A stretch of DNA of 64,000 bases. Origin: Antedon mediterranea. Taxonomy: Eukaryota > Echinodermata > Crinoidea > Comatulida > Antedonidae. Below the pieces are notes generated by a model that made no database searches, was not told the DNA's origin, and saw only the letters and a list, made by a program, of their open reading frames with translations. The translations under genes were made by a program, and so were the position numbers. The number at the start of each line of letters is the position of its first letter. The stretch's first letter is position 1. Shown here piece after piece: positions 43,003-54,321 of this stretch. The stretch spans positions 23,726,365 to 23,790,364 of the forward strand of contig NC_092678.1 of assembly GCF_964355755.1 (NCBI RefSeq). Direction: 5' to 3'.

Positions 43003-43204
43003 AAAACAAATGTAAAATTGCAAAACATTGTATAATTTCGGTTTATTGCAAGTTAATTTTAAATCAATTATTTTCCAAACTCTCGAAAGTATTAATGTAG
43101 TACTGTTTAAGAAGATTTGTGACAATCTGTTTATATTCTAAACCACATTTATAATTTCGAGATATAGGAATACACGTAATTTACGTACATTAGATATATT
43201 AGAT

Positions 43205-43407
43205 ATATATATAATAATTTTGATATTGAAAATGTGTGTAGTTGGTCGCTTTCTTGTCGATGCTTTTATTGTAGAACGTAATTTATTTATTTTTCTCTGT
43301 TCTGGGTTGACCAACTAGCATGTGTTTAGCACCTGTTTGGTCTTTCCGTGCCTCCTTTTATAATTGTTTTGTCTTCTTTGTTATGTATATGGCAGAAATT
43401 GAATAAT
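43205..43407 (+). mobile_element. retroelement-tail-like repeat, uninterrupted copy
   Basis: About 200 bp (GAAAATGTGTGTAGTTGGTC ... TTGACCAACTAGCATGTGTT ... GGCAGAAATTGAATAATATT) also occurs at 49989-50100 plus 53518-53610, where a transposon splits it. The A/T-rich GAATAAATAA-type end in the other copy resembles LINE or SINE tails; exact class not assigned. Confidence 0.65.
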
Positions 43408-43511
43408 ATTAAAAAAAAGCTTTTAAGGCACAAATCTGTATAGAACCTAGCATTATAGTACAGTACTGTATGCTTATACTTTAGTGGGAAATAATGACGT
43501 CATGATCATCT

Positions 43512-46500
43512 TTATAATCCACCGATGCAGACATACTTGATATGCAAGTATTCTTCTATTCCATACTTTGATCCTTCGATACCAATTCCAGATTCTTTCA
43601 CACCGCCAAACGGACCTTCGACACACGCCACTAAGGCCCCTTCGTTCACACCAAGGATCCCAACGTTTATCTTATCGGCTACGCGCCAAATTTGTTGGTG
43701 ATCGTTTGAATAGAAATAACCAGCTAATCCAGATCTGGTGTCGTTAGCAATGCGTGTAGCTTCTTCTTCTGTTTTGAACCTAAAAAGTGAAATTAACCAT
43801 TGCAATTTAACTTTGATTAAACGTCACCTATATCAGATCTACCAATTATGACAGTGTAAAGCCTTGCCTATACTATGTAAAACTGTATGTGTCAAAAAAC
43901 TGTCCGTATATGGACACGATGACGTCATATCACTACCATATTTACTACCATAATACTATTTTGATAGTGTATTAATGTCCATTGTGTGTGTAGTGTGTGT
44001 ACAAACCATACATGACTGCGCTTGTTAGAGCGTACACCGTCCTATATACCATATTCTTTGAACTTTACTATAGCCTACTCACTTTATAATGGCAGCCATT
44101 GGTGCGAATGTTTCTTCTGTGCAGAACAGCATGTCGGCGGTTGCATTAGATATGAGAGTTGGCTCAAAGAATGTTCCACCGAGTTTGTGTCTTTTTCCAC
44201 CAAGAAGGAGCTTACCACCGTTTGATAATGCGTTCTTTATGTGGTTTTCAACCTTTCAATATAATAAAATGATCAAATGTTTGGACAAGTTTACAAAAAT
44301 GTTGCTGCACGTTGTTTGTTTGGTTTTCATTTTATCAAAAACTTTACCTTTTCTACCGCCCGTTGGTTTATCAGCGGACCTACAGTACATTTAGCGTCAA
44401 AACCGTCTCCCACATGTAGTTGCTCTTTCATTGCTGCTACCACTTTCTCAACAAAGCTGTCATACATTTTTTCTTGAACAAGAATTCTGTTTGCAGAAAT
44501 ACACGTCTGAAAAGAAAAAGCACAAATCAGTCATATCTGCAAATATCTTGAACCGAAATGATTTAATTAAACATCGTTTTTTCCAAACATTGTGTCAAAG
44601 AGGATTCACCTGGCCGGAGTTTCTGAATTTGCAGACAATCAGACCAGCGACGGCGCGGTCAACATCAGCTGAATCGAACACAATAAATGGAGCATTTCCA
44701 CCAAGTTCCAACGAGAATTTCTTGACGGTACTTGCTCCTGTTTTTAACAGAATCTAGAGTAAAGAGAGAAGGATTTTGTAATTAGAATTTTAAAGTACCG
44801 AATAAGATTATCTAAGTCAATAAAAACTAAACAATAATTAATAACAATGAATTATATACCTTTCCAACAGCAGTTGAACCAGTAAACGAAATCTTTGCAA
44901 CAAGCGGGCTAGTACAAATGGCATTGCCAACTTTAGCAGCATTTTGTCTTGAACACGTGACTACGTTCAGGACTCCTGGTGGAAATCCTGCTTGCTCTCC
45001 AAGCTACAAAAACAAGTTGTATTTTTTTGTAGACTTAATCATGGAGGTATACCTCCATGACTTAATCAACATTGTAAACAAGAATATCAGGTATGGAATG
45101 GGACAGACAGACACATTAATTTGGATATATATGTACTTAGCATGCACCTTTGGTTTATGAATAGTTTAAGCATACCTCACACAAGGCTAAGGCAGAGAAG
45201 GGCGTATCCTCTGCTGGTTTTAGTACAACTGTACATCCAGCAGCCAAAGCGACTCCAGCTTTTCTAGTTACCATTGCATGAGGAACATTCCACTATAAAA
45301 AGATAATTGAGATACTTTATTGGATAGGTTCAAAGGAACCAAAGCTATATACTGTAGGCCATTTATTAGGCGTTTTTATTTTTCAAAAACATTAAATTTG
45401 GTTATTGCAAATGTTGTTGGTGTTGTTACTCGTCGACCTTTTCCATATTGTGAGAATGTAATCGCAAACAATTGGTAAAACAAAAACAAATTGAATAGCT
45501 GAAAAATGGTATGCCTGTGTATTGATTAACATTTTTATTACAAATAGACAGATCAGAACTTACAGGGGTAATCATTCCGGCGACTCCAATGGGTTGCTTG
45601 AAGGCAAATAACTTTCTTCCTTTTGCTGGAGTGGTTATTACGTCACCACAGACACGACGCGCTTCTTCAGCGAACCAATCAACGAACGATGCACCATTGT
45701 CAATCTCCAACATTGATTGTTTTAATGGTTTCCCCTTTCAACAAAAGCATCAATAAATGTTTACAATTCATTCAATTTCACAAGCAATTGTGAATTTTGT
45801 TTTTGTTGATGAATTAGGTTCATAGTACGATGAGTGACATGTAGGCCTACACACCACTATATACTTATCTTAATTCTTACCATTTCTTTAGTTAGTATCA
45901 CTGCCAATTCCTCCTTATGTTTGAGAATAAGGTCGTGCCATTTATGTAAGATTTGACATCGTTCCTAAAAATTATAGTCGGAAGAGTTAAGCCTATTCGT
46001 TGAAACATTATTACATAAAAAACTGAAAAAAAATACCAATCAAGTCCGCCTTTTTACAATGAATAGCAAATACAAGGTTGTGCCAAGTCATCACTGTTAC
46101 CTTTGCTGTTGTCTGCCTCCAGGTCTGAAAAGCCGCATCAGCCGCTGCGATCGCCTCATTGGTGTCTCCTTCAATCATATCAGGCACTTCGCCGACGATT
46201 TCTCCTGTCGACGGATTGATGACGACAAAAACGGTTCTATCCTTGGCGCTAATCCATTTGCCATTTACGTAGCATTTGTTTTTCAAAAGTGAGCTGTTAC
46301 GAATTAAATATTTCGTTATTATTATTTTGTATGGCATAAACAATAATGGTATGTTTGTGTACGTGTTTTATTAGTTTCGACGCCACAATAGCCAAATTCG
46401 ACGCGCGCGGCGTGCGTATCATTTTTACAGCTTTGAATGTGCTCGTCTAATATATTTTTAAATATTTGTGATACTCATTGATGAATGTATTAAAACCTAA

Positions 46501-46512
46501 CCTTACAGACAT
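43512..46512 (-). CDS. ALDH5A1: succinate-semialdehyde dehydrogenase-like, copy 1, 10 exons, 486 aa
   Basis: Exons: 46512-46502, 46293-46101, 45964-45881, 45734-45564, 45292-45176, 45003-44860, 44753-44610, 44506-44348, 44252-44083, 43779-43512; 1461 nt, phases agree. It belongs to the NAD(P)-aldehyde dehydrogenase fold: KCYVNGKW at the start, [22 protein letters not shown] with the general base near Glu256, GQTC with the nucleophile near Cys290, and [11 protein letters not shown] near the end, closest to SSADH (ALDH5A1), which oxidises succinate semialdehyde to succinate in GABA breakdown. The 11-nt first exon encodes only MSV plus part of Ser; an in-frame stop lies just upstream, so no mitochondrial transit peptide is visible. 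Its donor is a weak GTTAGG. Oddities: TCISA replaces the family's TCVC, and one residue is inserted ([10 protein letters not shown]). Tandem paralogue of the gene at 47591-54321. Confidence 0.88.
43857..43972. mobile_element. MITE family A copy, last intron of ALDH5A1 copy 1
   Basis: TAAAGCCTTGCCTATACTAT at the left and TATTTTGATAGTGTATTAAT at the right. The same insertion is present in the equivalent intron of copy 2 (about 48020-48150), so it predates the gene duplication. Confidence 0.7.
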
Positions 46513-46647
46513 GTTCCTATCTTTTCCAACTCACTGAACTAGAACCTAATGTTGTATGACAAAAGTATACACGTATAAATCATTTTATTGCAGTAGACTT
46601 ATTTAAATAAAGCAATAAAGAAAAAAAAAACTGAACTCCAGTTTCAG

Positions 46648-46880
46648 AATCAAAAGTGAGCTGTTATTGAATTATTTCGTTATTTTTGTATTGTATGGCA
46701 TTAATAATAATTGTATGATTTTGTGTCAAATTGGTTTCATCTCACTACGGAAACCTATTGGTTTAGGCCTACACATATAAAGTACCGTACTGCGCCAAAT
46801 ATTCTTTTATCTTTTGTGGAGAAATTTAATTCATGATGTATTACAGATCTTACCTTAGAGACATGTTTCTAGTATGTCCA
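46648..46880 (-). pseudogene. truncated third ALDH5A1 copy (exon 1, intron 1, start of exon 2)
   Basis: 46854-46864 repeats the 11-nt first exon (ATGTCTCTAAG) with donor GTAAGA. CAAAAGTGAG/CTGTTA at about 46651 repeats the exon 2 acceptor and first 10 nt. Homology to exon 2 stops there; beyond it the sequence matches the region upstream of copy 2 (near 54.42-54.46 kb). It therefore marks a duplication junction. It cannot encode a protein. Confidence 0.75.
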
Positions 46881-47590
46881 ACTCGCATGAGACCAGGACC
46901 TTTGCCGTATGACATTGCATTGTCAAAAGTTAAAGTACACGTATAAATAATTGATAATATATAATATAATTTTATACCACCATTAGAATTAATCAAACGA
47001 AGGGTACTCGTCTATAAGGGTATCTTAAGCCAGATAAGAAAATCACGACTTTATAATAATATGGGCTGATAGAGCTGCAAATGGCATTGTGAGAGAAACA
47101 AAATTAATTTGTATTAGGTTTATCGAATTAAACAAAGTTAACTGAAGGCCTGTTTCAAGTACAGTAATTACAAAGTATAAAATGGTTTTGAATTTGTAGA
47201 AGTTGCAAATGGTCTCAATAACAGTGTGTGAGGCGTTTGTTACTTATTAGACATACCACTGATTGATCATACGTTCACACAATAAACAAGAAGTTAAATT
47301 GCAAAACAAATATTCTGTTTGTTGCAACTTACTTGATAGATATGACTATCGATATTTCGGATCCAGATGGGGAAATAACGTACGTTCACAAACTTATCAT
47401 TAAAACACTTTAGTAACAAAAACAAATATTGTACTATTTTCTGTTTATTTGCAATTTAATTTAAAATATCAAATTATTTCTAACGATTTTTTTTAAAGAT
47501 CAACCGGAATACACATTAATCATGAAGTTGAGACACAGATCTGTTTAGAACCTAGAATTGTAGTTGAAGATAATGACGTCATGATCATCT
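46881..47590. other. spacer between ALDH5A1 copies
   Basis: No exon seen. Contains the 3' flank of copy 2 and the 5' flank of the truncated copy. Confidence 0.6.
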
Positions 47591-50500
47591 TTATAATCCA
47601 CCGATGCAGACATACTTGATATGCAAGTAATCTTCTATTCCATACTTGGATCCTTCGATACCAATTCCAGATTCTTTCACACCGCCAAACGGACCTTCGA
47701 CACACGACACTAAGCCTTCGTTCACACCAAGAATTCCCACGTTTATTTTATCGGCTACGCGCCAAATTTGTTGGTGATCGTTTGAATAGAAATAACCAGC
47801 TAATCCAGATCTGGTGTCGTTAGCAATGCGAGTAGCTTCTTCTTCTGTTTTGAACCTAAAATGGTAAATCAACGATTGAACTTTTTAAAGTTGACAGTGT
47901 AAGGTTTACACGTATGTCGACAGGGAACTCAATTGTGTCGACATCTCTGAGCAACTGACCGCAAATTTCAATTTAACTCTGATTAAACGTGTTTGTCACC
48001 TTAAATCTACCAAATATTACAGTGTAAAGCTTTGCCTATACTATGTAAAACTGTACAAAAATTGTCCGTATATGGACACGATGACATCATACCACTACCA
48101 TATTTGGATACATTACTTGTTTTATCAAACTATTTTGATAGTGAATTAATGTCCAGTCTGTGTGTGTAGTGTGCGTACCAACGATACATGACTGCGCTTG
48201 TTCGGACGTATATCTTCCTAGTATTACCGTACTCGTTGGAACGTAAACTGCAGCCTACTCACTTTATAATGGCAGCCATTGGTGCAAACGTTTCTTCTGT
48301 GCAGAACAGCATGTCGGTAGTTGCATTAGATATGAGAGTTGGCTCAAAGAATGTCCCACCGAGTTTATGCCTTTTCCCACCAAGAATGAGCTTACCACCG
48401 TTTGATAATGCGTTCTTGATGTGGTTTTCAACCTTTAAAATAATTGAAAATGTTTGGAAAAAAGTTGCTGCGAGTGTTTGGTTCTAATCATACATACGAC
48501 ATTTATTAACAACCAACCTTTTGCTGGATGTTGTTTGGTTTTAATCATATTTAACAACCAACTTTACCTTTTCTACCGCCCGTTGGTTAATCAGCGGACC
48601 TACTGTACATTTAGCGTCAAAGCCATCTCCCACATGTAGTTGCTCTTTCATTGCTGCTACCACTTTCTCAACAAAGCTATCGTAAACATTTTCTTGAACA
48701 AGAATTCTGTTTGCGCAAACACACGTCTGAAAAGAAAAAGCACAGAATTAAATCAGTCATATTTGCAAATAAATTGAACCGAACCGAAATAATTTGATTA
48801 ACCATCGTTCTTTTACAATCATTTGTCAAAGAGGAATCACCTGACCGGAGTTTCTGAATTTGCAGACCATCAGACCAGCGACGGCGCGGTCAACATCAGC
48901 TGAATCGAATACAATAAATGGGGCATTTCCACCAAGTTCCAACGAGAATTTCTTGACGGTACTGGCTCCAGTTTTTAACAGAATCTAGAGTTTAAAGAAA
49001 GAGACGTACATTGTAATACAATGTAGGATACTGAATACTATTATTTACTATCAGTATAAATGAAGTGAATTATATATACCTTTCCAACTGCAGTTGAACC
49101 AGTAAACGAAATCTTTGCAACAAGCGGGCTAGTACAAATGGCGTTGCCAACTTTAGCAGCGTTTGGTCTCGAACACGTGACTACGTTCAGGACTCCTGGT
49201 GGAAATCCTGCTTGCTCTCCCAGCTACAAAAACAAAACTTGTATTAACATATGTACAAGATGGGAATAATAGGTATAGAACGGCAAACAAGCCTGCGCTG
49301 AAAACGAAACAATGATTTGGTTATACTTAGCAGGATCACATTTATCTATCTATCGTTTATGAATAGTTTAAACATACCTCACATAAGGCTAAGGCAGAGA
49401 AGGGTGTATCTTCTGCTGGTTTTAGTACAACTGTACATCCAGCAGCTAAAGCGGCTCCAGCTTTCCTGGTTACCATTGCATGAGGAAAATTCCACTAAAA
49501 GAAAATAAGTATAGAAATTAAAATACGTAATAAAAAAAATCTATTGAAGTTTGGCTATATATGCGTTTTTAAAACGATAATTACAGGGGTCAACGACTGA
49601 CGACCACGACAACTTCTTCATAAAATGTTCGATTGTTAGAACATGAAACCATAAAAGGGGTGAATTATTAGTTTATGAATGTTCCAGTTTTACAACAATA
49701 GGTCCAAATAATAATAGAACTCACAGGTGTTATCATTCCGGCGACTCCAACGGGTTGCTTGAAGGCAAATAACTTTCTTCCTTTTGCTGGAGTGGTTATT
49801 ACGTCACCATAGACACGACGCGCTTCTTCAGCAAACCAATCAACAAACGATGCACCATAGCCAATTTCGCCCATTGATTCTTTTAATGGTTTTCCCTTTA
49901 AATAAAACATACATGACATCCGCAACTTAAATATTTCTGTTAGTTCTTTTAAAACCAAATTACTTAATTATCTCAATATTTATTTTTAAAATAATTTTGA
50001 TATTGAAAATGTGTATAGTTGGTCGCTTTTTTGTCGATGCTTTTATTGTAGAACGTAATTTATTTATTTTTCTCTGTTCTGGGTTGACCAACTAGCATAG
50101 TAGCAGGGTAACTTAGCACTTTTTTTGTGCACTTTGTGACAAAAGCACCAAATTTGGCACAAACCTTCTTTAGGGTATATCTAACAATCCTAGAAGGGGT
50201 GCCCAAAAATCGGAACAATTTAACGACGTCATTTGGACCACGCCCCTTTTTTAGTATTACGTAATTAGGTGAAAACTTAAATCTCCGTATATACATACCA
50301 AGTTTGGTATCAAATTAAAACTCATGACATGTACATTGCAATACACACATAAAAAATATTTGATTTCTCTTCAGACGGAATATATAGGTCAAATAATGTA
50401 ATTTTCTCTCATATTGAAGGGTATTTCAATCAAAACGCGCCAATATTGTGTTATGTTATGAACATTGTAGTTATAAGAACAACAACATTCATTTTGTAAT

Positions 50501-53500
50501 AGAACTACTAATATATATTTATCCTGTACCAGTTACTTTCCTTTAACATATAATTAGGAACCACTGAAAAAAAGTATTTAAAACATATACTGTATCAAAC
50601 TTGACTCAATAATCACTGGACTATGTAAACAGACAAAAGACCATTTGACTGACAATTATGGCGTTAGCATCCATAACAATACATGGAAGTGATTATCAAC
50701 TTTACTTTTATGAAATTATTTATCTGGAAACAAACACTTATAATGGTACAGAGTTGATAGATGACGAACAAGTTCCACGGCATGGGTAACAAAGACCAGT
50801 GCACTGCTGAACGGCACTTGCAGTTCCCTGAGCAAAAAAGCAACTTTTTGCAGCCACACTTTAGCAATTCCCTACATGCCTTAGATGCTTCAGGTAGTAT
50901 TGTCCAGACTGGTGTCCATGTACTGCCGGTTTTAGTCCAACCAAAGTCTTCTGGTGATGGAGCATTCTGCTGTGGCTGTAGACTGGTGGTCCAAATGCTT
51001 GCTTGGTATATGGATCTGTTGGAATGCTGTAAAAGTGCATCCTGCAATAAACATTTTAAAGATTGGTGTTACCTTTTAATGAAAGAAAAACATGAACCTG
51101 ATAATAAATTATTAAACGACAATTGACAATTATATGGAAGCTCCCCTTACCTGTGTAGGAGGAATGTTGTCCATTGTCCGTGCTTTTCGTGAAAAAAGAT
51201 ATTGTCTTAGCTTAGTAACACTTCTTAAAGTACTTGTCTTGTCGTATAGATGTCTAGCAACTGGAATTGAGATGAGTTGACTCCTAGAGATTTGAAAGGG
51301 TGATGTGCCACGAAAAGAAAGGCTTCTGTGACTGCTGGTAATGAGTTCCACGTCTCCCATGCGGAGTGTTTTGCTTTTCCGAAGAACTGGGATGTAGTAT
51401 CGGACCCAGTAAATGCATGAAAAACTGGCAGCCCTCTTGAATTATCCTCTCCTAGGTTATGGCAGATGGTATTTATATTAAAATATTGGAAGTGCTTACC
51501 CATGCCAAATGGGACCCAGATACACGTACCAGGATAACAGGCTATTAGATTGCAGAAAATACCAACCAGGATAACAATGGCATCAGTAGTACGCACCAGA
51601 ATAACCCTGCTACCTTTCTTTAAGGCATCATCAATGTGAATGCACATCCTGGAGTCGGCCTCTTCATGGTCGCAGATTGACATAGGTTGAGTAGATGTCA
51701 ACATACAACAGACTCGCCTACAGTACATATATCAAGAATTACTTACTAATTTAATATGCCTTTTTAATTAATTATTGGTACGAAACTGTATAAGTAAATT
51801 AATCGTTTGGTTACAAACAAAATGAATTAGTATGTATCATAATAAAACTTACCTGATGTAATGTCAACTTCTTTGCAGTCAGAGTAATCATGGGTAGACA
51901 TCTTTGTAGTTAAAAAGTTAAATAACTCGTCTTTATTTACTGGATCTTTCAGAAAGTCTGGAAAATTCCCTGGAATCTTTGTTTGTCCCCCAACTTTCCT
52001 CCTGACCCCTTTTCCTCTTTTTTTCTCTTGTAGACTGCTTAAGACTATCTGTTCTGTAAGTGTCCCACACTATATCAATTCTGTTACTATTCTGCAGCTG
52101 CTGTCTGGTCCACGGTAGAAAGACCTGTCATACAAATGATACAATAATAACGATCCGCATATAGAAGTGACCAATTATGTGGTGGTTAAACAATAGATAC
52201 AATCCTGAATGCAAAGAAATGTACTCACCTTATTATCACCGTAGTCATCAAATGTAAATGCATGGTTGCTGGAAAGAGCATGGACAATAGCAGCTCCGTC
52301 AAACACCTTTACGTCAAAATATGTAGGAGGTTCAGGCTGGCCTTCAGTCTCCAAATGTTGTAGCAACTCAGACTTCTTAGTTGGTAGTCGAAGCTTTCCA
52401 TTTACTGCCAAAGAGGGTGGCCATGGCTGGTTTTCATGCATGAAAAAGTCTTCCAAATCTCCATCACGAGATTGACTTGCAAATATACAGTCGACTGAAT
52501 AGGCTGCAGTCACTTTTTAAACTCTTAACTTGTTGCTTTGTTTTGGACACACTCATTTTGACCGTGGTGTGTTGAACAACGGCAGCTTATTCTGTTTGAT
52601 GGCTTGTTGAATTGCAACACTTCTGTCGAGAATAACTTCCTTGAAATATTTTTGGTACTGGGTAGTACCTACATCCTGAATTGTACGAACTGTCACTACT
52701 GCACTTTCATTGGCACAATCTCGAGCATCCAAGACCAGAAGTTCTGAACAATTATCGAGGAATGGGTTGCCTGAATTGCTCAGGGAACTGCAAGTGCCGT
52801 TCAGCAGGTCTTTCTTGCACTGGTCTTTGTTACCCATGCCGTGGAACATCTAGCAACTCTGTACCATTATAAGTGTTTGTTTCCAGATAAATAATTTCAT
52901 AAAAGTAAAGTTGATAATCACCTCTATGTATTGTTATGGATGCTAACGCCATAATTGTCAGTCAAATGGTCTTTTGTCTGTTTACCAGTGATTATTGAGC
53001 CAAGTTTGATACAGTATATGTTTTATATACTTTTTTTCAGTGGTTCCTAATTATATGTTAAAGGAAAGTAACTGGTACAGGATAAATATATATTAGTAGT
53101 TCTATTACAAAAATGAATGTTGTTGTTCTTATAACTACAATGTTCATAACATAACACAATATTGGCGCGTTTTGATTGAAATACCCTTCAATATGAGAGA
53201 AAATGACATTATTTGACCTATATATTCCGTCTGAAGAGAAATCATATATTTTTTATGTGTGTATTGCAATGTACATGTCATGAGTTTTAATTTGATACCA
53301 AACTTGGTATGTATATACGAAGATTTAAGGTTTCACCTAATTACGTAATACTAAAAAAAGGGCGTGGTCCAAATGACGTCGTTAAATTGTTCCGATTTTT
53401 GGGCACCCCTTCTAGGATTGTTAGATATACCCTAAAGAAGGTTTGTGCCAAATTTGGTGCTTTTGTCACAAAATGCACAATCTTCATAAAAAATGGAAGT

Positions 53501-54321
53501 TAGCAACCCTGCTATAGGTGTTTAGCACCTGTTTGGTCTTTCCGTGCCTCCTTTTATAATTGTTTTGTCTTCTTTATTTATGTATATGGCAGAAATTGAA
53601 TAAATAAAAAAAATAAAAACATTTATTTCATAAACAATTGAAATTGCATAGTGGAACGAATGTTTGTCATGACGGTTTGTATGTGTTGCTTACCATTTCT
53701 TTGGTTAGTATTGCTGCCAATTCCTCCTTATGTTTCAGAATGAGGTCGTGCCATTTATGTAAGATTTGACATCGTTCCTAAAAAATGATACTCATAAATA
53801 TAAATCGTTACCAATAGTTAAACTGTAACTTCAATGAACAATTTACGAAATACGTCATCCCGAATTAAAAATAATGCAAACAGATTTTACCTTTGCTGTT
53901 TTCTGGCTCCAGGTCTGAAAAGCCACATCAGCTGCTGCGATCGCCTCATTGGTGTCTCCTTCAATCATATCAGGCACTTCGCCGACGATTTCTCCCGTCG
54001 ATGGATTGGTGACGACAAAAACGGCTCCATCCTTGGCGCTAATCCATTTGCCATTTACGTAGCATTTCTTTTTCAAAAGTGAGCTGTTATGAATTAAATA
54101 TTTCGTTATTATTGTTTCTATGGCATAAACAATAATTGTATATTTGTGTACGTGTCGTATTAGTTAAAAGTCTTTCGACGCGCGCCACAATATCCAAATT
54201 CAACGCGTGGCGTGCGTATACTATTACAGCGTTGAACGTGCTCGTCTAATATACAGTATTTTAAATATGTGTGATACTCATTGATGAATTGTACTGTATT
54301 AAAATCTTACCTTACAGACAT
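47591..54321 (-). CDS. ALDH5A1: succinate-semialdehyde dehydrogenase-like, copy 2, 10 exons, 485 aa
   Basis: Exons: 54321-54311, 54083-53891, 53777-53694, 49895-49725, 49494-49378, 49223-49080, 48984-48841, 48726-48568, 48432-48263, 47855-47591; 1458 nt, phases agree and no disruption seen. Every exon matches copy 1 in length except the last (3 nt shorter, giving [10 protein letters not shown] as in other SSADHs). The catalytic Cys region reads GQTCVCANR, retaining both cysteines of the redox switch described for human SSADH; the general base is in SLELGG. The first exon is again 11 nt (MSV plus part of Ser), here with a good donor GTAAGA, and an in-frame stop precedes it, so no transit peptide is seen. 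Intron 3 (49896-53693) holds a 3.4-kb DNA transposon. Same reaction as copy 1 is expected; functional divergence is inference. Confidence 0.88.
48020..48150. mobile_element. MITE family A copy, last intron of ALDH5A1 copy 2
   Basis: TAAAGCTTTGCCTATACTAT ... ACTACCATATTTGGATACAT ... CAAACTATTTTGATAGTG. Positionally equivalent to the copy at 43857-43972. Confidence 0.7.
50101..53514. mobile_element. 3.4-kb DNA transposon with about 735-bp terminal inverted repeats
   Basis: Ends TAGCAGGGT and ACCCTGCTA are complementary. The inverted repeats run from 50101 to about 50833 and from about 52776 to 53514. A 3-bp TAG on each side (50098-50100 and 53515-53517) is the likely target-site duplication. 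The right terminal repeat has about 10 bp more near its tip than the left. The interior carries a decayed minus-strand transposon protein gene. Superfamily not assigned. Confidence 0.85.
50790..52775 (-). pseudogene. decayed transposon-encoded protein, [13 protein letters not shown] family
   Basis: Minus-strand segments in order: LLVLDARDC and VRTIQDVG (52.55-52.77 kb); [19 protein letters not shown] (52.2-52.5 kb); [19 protein letters not shown] (about 51.9 kb); [31 protein letters not shown] and [20 protein letters not shown] (51.3-51.7 kb); [14 protein letters not shown] and IPPTQ (51.15-51.3 kb); then, after an intron, [34 protein letters not shown] and [10 protein letters not shown] (50.8-51.05 kb). 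I recognise this as a multicopy uncharacterised protein widespread in marine invertebrate genomes. A frame change between the 51.3-kb segments and lack of a clear N-terminus indicate it is broken. The acidic motifs could be catalytic, but that is inference. Confidence 0.6.

Follow-up and report, generated by a model that had tools for sequence, protein, structure and literature searches.

The two tandem genes for succinic semialdehyde dehydrogenase (SSADH; ALDH5A1-like) in the analysed window, i.e., a whole 64,000-nucleotide stretch of the Antedon mediterranea genome, differ at the redox-switch cysteine of an enzyme that helps degrade the neurotransmitter GABA. As the first-pass annotation had noticed, the catalytic loop reads TCISANR in copy 1 and TCVCANR in copy 2. 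The reading that we favour, and to which we give about an even chance, is that copy 1 would be an intact tandem duplicate of the ALDH5 family, of some age (dS 0.17), whose active site has been altered as a whole, the loss of the switch being one of several changes.

Both copies are encoded on the minus strand in 10 coding exons each (Table 1), and the ten-exon models end exactly at the outer coordinates that the first-pass annotation had given. Introns follow the GT-AG rule throughout, and neither a stop codon nor a frameshift interrupts either model. Exon 1, which contributes 11 coding bases, was inferred from conservation between the copies and from its donor site, which is GTAAGA in copy 2 and the weaker-looking GTTAGG in copy 1. 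In the 5' region of copy 1, parts of the window at 46640-46914 repeat 46270-46562 with 76-83% identity, and a possible second version of its first exon is included in Table 1. In-frame stop codons lie a short way 5' of the ATG that opens the modelled N-terminus, MSVSSLLK(K/N)KCYVNGKW; as modelled from DNA only, so that a further upstream exon is possible, neither copy carries a mitochondrial targeting peptide. Intron 3 of copy 2 (49896-53693) harbours an insertion some 3.4 kb long (roughly 50099-53517), nested in another repeat. The inserted element has the ends TAGCAGGGT...ACCCTGCTA and inverted arms of about 710 bp that are 95% identical (50125-50835 and 52776-53480), and an empty version of its host repeat is located at 43204-43417, 3' of copy 1. 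For a minus-strand ORF within the element (51225-51731), which contains the motif HEEADSRM, Pfam gave no match.

Table 1. Features of the tandem SSADH genes (positions in the window).
Feature	Position	Strand	Description
Copy 1	43512..46512	-	SSADH (ALDH5A1-like), 10 coding exons, 486 aa, loop TCISANR
Copy 1 exons	46502-46512, 46101-46293, 45881-45964, 45564-45734, 45176-45292, 44860-45003, 44610-44753, 44348-44506, 44083-44252, 43512-43779	-	
Copy 1 catalytic loop	44506-44486	-	ACG TGT ATT TCT GCA AAC AGA = TCISANR; Cys340 kept, Val341Ile, Cys342Ser (codon TCT)
Copy 1 exon 4	45564..45734	-	Glu152Gln, Gly155Leu, Tyr159Asn, Tyr175Cys, all at near-invariant sites
Copy 1 exon 5	45176..45292	-	Phe206Val: PWNFP motif becomes PWNVP
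Copy 1 last exon	43512..43779	-	Ser498Ala and one extra codon before it (NEGALVAC; copy 2: NEGLVSC)
Possible duplicated or alternative first exon of copy 1	46854..46864	-	ATGTCTCTAAG, then GTAAGA donor (good)
Copy 2	47591..54321	-	SSADH (ALDH5A1-like), 10 coding exons, 485 aa, loop TCVCANR
Copy 2 exons	54311-54321, 53891-54083, 53694-53777, 49725-49895, 49378-49494, 49080-49223, 48841-48984, 48568-48726, 48263-48432, 47591-47855	-	
Copy 2 catalytic loop	48726-48706	-	ACG TGT GTT TGC GCA AAC AGA = TCVCANR; Cys340 and Cys342 (codon TGC)

Membership in the SSADH subfamily was tested with the NCBIfam model TIGR01780, for which the curated cut-off is 646.35 bits. Copy 2 scores 681.8 bits, well over this value, whereas copy 1, with 650.2 bits, lies barely over it and 31 bits under copy 2. 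In a maximum likelihood tree, copy 1 is the sister of copy 2, and both form a clade with a third SSADH-like gene of the same genome and with human SSADH (support 100/99). By phylogeny, the predicted protein of copy 1 is still an ALDH5 member despite its Ser342.

Aligned over 1458 bases, the coding regions of the pair show 80 differences, spread over nine exons, and copy 1 has one inserted codon in addition; at the protein level, 26 amino acid differences accompany the inserted residue and the copies are 94.6% identical. Given a dN/dS of 0.15 (dN 0.026, dS 0.17) and exons that are far more alike (92-97% identical) than introns (51-87%), the pair has been under long constraint, both copies having been preserved at the protein level through most of their history. 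The coding differences, the dS and the intron divergence also exclude that the copies are two haplotypes of one gene. Assuming an even split of synonymous changes between the branches, we estimate a dN/dS of about 0.20 for the copy 1 branch.

Alignment to human SSADH (2w8n) identifies the nucleophile as Cys340 and the differing residue as Cys342, confirming that copy 1 keeps the former and has lost the latter. In the human enzyme, a disulphide between these two cysteines closes the catalytic loop, blocks the active site and inactivates the enzyme (PMC2823781, PMC11681614). Our survey of relatives comprised 59 bacterial proteins, the sequence of one human structure and this genome's three paralogues. 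Among the bacterial SSADH-like proteins, which share 47% identity or more with copy 2, residue 342 is Cys in 57 of 59 and Ser in the other 2, and Ser342 in copy 1 is therefore a real departure. Since the protein predicted from copy 1 lacks Cys342, a human-type Cys340-Cys342 disulphide cannot form in it. The combination of Cys342, Lys214 and Arg334 has been reported as specific for ALDH5, with Cys342 described as conserved (PMC11681614); copy 2 encodes all three residues, whereas copy 1 combines Lys214 and Arg334 with Ser342. The general base Glu306 is present, together with Cys340, in both copies. In the predicted protein of copy 2, all residues needed for a human-type switch are present; two active-site cysteines, however, do not guarantee that an enzyme is redox-switched.

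The loop is not the only part of the active site that has changed in copy 1. Three residues, Ser498, Arg213 and Arg334, hold the carboxylate of succinic semialdehyde (PMC11681614), Ser445 being the E. coli counterpart of Ser498 (PMC2823781), and Ser498 is considered essential for binding this substrate and conserved in all SSADHs (PMC11681614). Copy 2 possesses all three, whereas copy 1 retains Arg213 and Arg334 and has Ala498. Among the losses of copy 1, that of Ser498 matters most. The residue that copy 1 has gained just before position 498 is shared by none of the 59 bacterial relatives (0/59). We take Phe206 and the helix 152-160 to line the substrate tunnel and the loop 495-498 to be the aldehyde anchor loop, as in the structure of ALDH2; on this structural analogy, the changes of copy 1 seem to cluster around the substrate.

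Conserved sites were defined as the 156 positions with at least 90% conservation across the 59 bacterial relatives, human SSADH, E. coli GabD and the third paralogue. Of these, eight are changed exclusively in copy 1 (E152Q, G155L, Y159N, Y175C, F206V, V341I, C342S, and S498A), and no such change is private to copy 2 (binomial p = 0.008). The conserved-site changes are thus placed on the branch of copy 1, which in the maximum likelihood tree has a length of 0.061 as compared to about 0 for copy 2. Total replacements per branch are not significantly uneven (17 for copy 1 versus 8 for copy 2, p = 0.11), and the roughly 17 changes of copy 1 show no excess at conserved sites over random placement (8 versus 5.5 expected, P = 0.14). 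Two further positions deviate in both tandem copies, which have Ile at Arg514 (last exon), the neighbour of the catalytic-network residue Glu515, and Ala at the conserved Gly441 (exon 9). Arg514 is invariant in the bacterial relatives (59/59) and is also found in human SSADH and in the third gene. Judging by Arg514 and Gly441, the tandem pair had already moved away from the SSADH norm before its duplication.

The third gene (C9:25656086-25660151, minus strand) lies on the same contig at a distance of 1.9 Mb from the tandem pair, is 55-57% identical to its members and has the same exon borders where these were compared. It is the next best match after the pair, and no further near-identical SSADH copies occur among the genome matches listed. 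Its loop also reads TCISANR, encoded with ATA AGC where copy 1 has ATT TCT, a difference in codons that excludes the third gene as the donor of the copy 1 loop in a gene conversion. Ser498 and Arg514 are kept. The third gene carries N335G, G495S and P503A at otherwise conserved sites. As Cys is common elsewhere and present in copy 2, and as the two Ser codons differ, two independent losses are the simplest history, and the switch cysteine was probably lost once in copy 1 and once in the third gene. An ancestral Ser with a reversion in copy 2 is less parsimonious, given that Cys is conserved elsewhere and that the two serines derive from different codon families.

Copy 1, the altered copy in the reading that we favour, retains the catalytic pair Cys340/Glu306 along with Arg213, Lys214, Arg334 and Glu515. 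Missing from it are the resolving Cys342, the Ser498 that anchors the substrate and the Phe of the PWNFP motif, and it has gained a residue in the loop before position 498. Such an enzyme would be predicted to be insensitive to the Cys340-Cys342 switch and either to bind succinic semialdehyde poorly or to prefer another aldehyde, while copy 2, with CVC and Ser498, would be the expected human-type SSADH and possibly redox-sensitive. The loss of the switch in copy 1 is then best read as one by-product of relaxed or redirected selection on this copy rather than as a selected trait.

The main rival to an altered active site is ongoing decay of copy 1, in which past purifying selection was followed by relaxed constraint, the function being left to copy 2 and the third gene and the loss of Cys342 being one hit among others. 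We regard this as doubtful but worth serious attention. It would fit the existence of two other SSADH genes in the genome, the weaker-looking donor of the first exon of copy 1, the eight conserved sites changed in this copy only, and the near-random rate at which its changes fall on conserved sites; plain loss of constraint explains changes at such a rate as well as redirected function does. However, the sole indel is a whole codon, and the dN/dS estimated above for the copy 1 branch is well below 1. A pseudogene inactivated by a stop codon, a frameshift or the loss of a splice site was looked for in the 10 exons of copy 1, all of which were found free of stops, frameshifts and broken splice consensus.

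Redox sub-functionalisation, with copy 2 switched by oxidation and copy 1, free of Cys342, working on succinic semialdehyde under oxidative stress, is closest to what the first-pass annotation had proposed, namely one redox-regulated and one constitutively active copy. Such a clean partition is possible but not favoured, and we think it rather unlikely. Copy 1 does lose Cys342 yet keeps Cys340, and a human Cys342Ala variant is reportedly active and even faster than the wild type (Kim et al., 2009, as cited in PMC11681614), so that loss of Cys342 should remove the switch without killing the enzyme. Also, the TCIS motif of the third gene, which occurs with Ser498 intact and with AGC instead of TCT, suggests that this position changed twice. 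Copy 1, however, has also been deprived of Ser498 and of six further near-invariant residues, and its anchor loop is longer by one residue. The switch of copy 2 is putative, and with no targeting peptide in either model, the human switch's proposed mitochondrial context may not hold for these copies. Of the proposed split, the absence of the switch cysteine from copy 1 stands; constitutive SSADH activity does not follow from it, given the other active-site losses of this copy, as Ser498Ala, the inserted residue and five more changes at near-invariant sites all argue against it. For an SSADH that is active without the switch, the third gene, in which Ser498 and Arg514 are kept, would be a more plausible candidate than copy 1. 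That the double loss of the resolving Cys has split GABA catabolism between one oxidation-sensitive and two oxidation-insensitive enzymes is conceivable but improbable. That the loop codon merely reflects an error of assembly or sequencing is very hard to believe, for although GTT TGC and ATT TCT differ in a local cluster of 3 out of 6 bases, the change is in frame within an otherwise clean exon, the pair shows its 80 coding differences over nine exons, and the third paralogue has the same amino acids by way of other codons.

If both enzymes are active, these tandem copies, nearly identical but for differences such as that at the switch cysteine, would constitute a natural experiment on the importance of the SSADH redox switch in vivo. 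More probably, the pair teaches caution: because copy 1 has also lost the substrate-binding Ser and other invariant residues, divergence of paralogues at one motif is no sufficient reason to infer that they are regulated differently.

Human SSADH (ALDH5A1; PDB 2w8n/2w8o/2w8p/2w8q) belongs to the same family and is 61% identical to copy 2 and 59% identical to copy 1. It has Cys340, Cys342, Glu306, Arg213, Lys214, Arg334, Ser498 and Glu515 in common with copy 2, whereas copy 1 shares neither Cys342 nor Ser498 with it and is longer by one residue ahead of position 498. Both tandem copies differ from the human enzyme by Ile for Arg514, by Ala for Gly441 and by a modelled N-terminus that lacks a transit peptide. 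Drosophila SSADH, we believe, has Ser at the position of residue 342 as well. A reversible disulphide at the catalytic Cys that closes the substrate pocket is also known from another aldehyde dehydrogenase, the L-sorbosone dehydrogenase (SNDH) of Gluconobacter oxydans (PMC10602560), although there the nucleophile pairs with the residue that directly precedes it (Cys295-Cys296) and not with the one two positions after it, and the substrate is unrelated. The contrast between a one-Cys and a two-Cys SSADH within one organism has already been published for E. coli, where GabD has two cysteines and Sad (YneI) a single one; without the dual cysteines, Sad may not be redox regulated (PMC2823781). In contrast to gabD and sad, which represent deeply divergent families with 32% identity, the genes described here are tandem ALDH5 copies with 94.6% protein identity. 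What the present genes add, then, is the contrast between such close tandem ALDH5 copies, together with the probable parallel loss of Cys342 in two of three paralogues.
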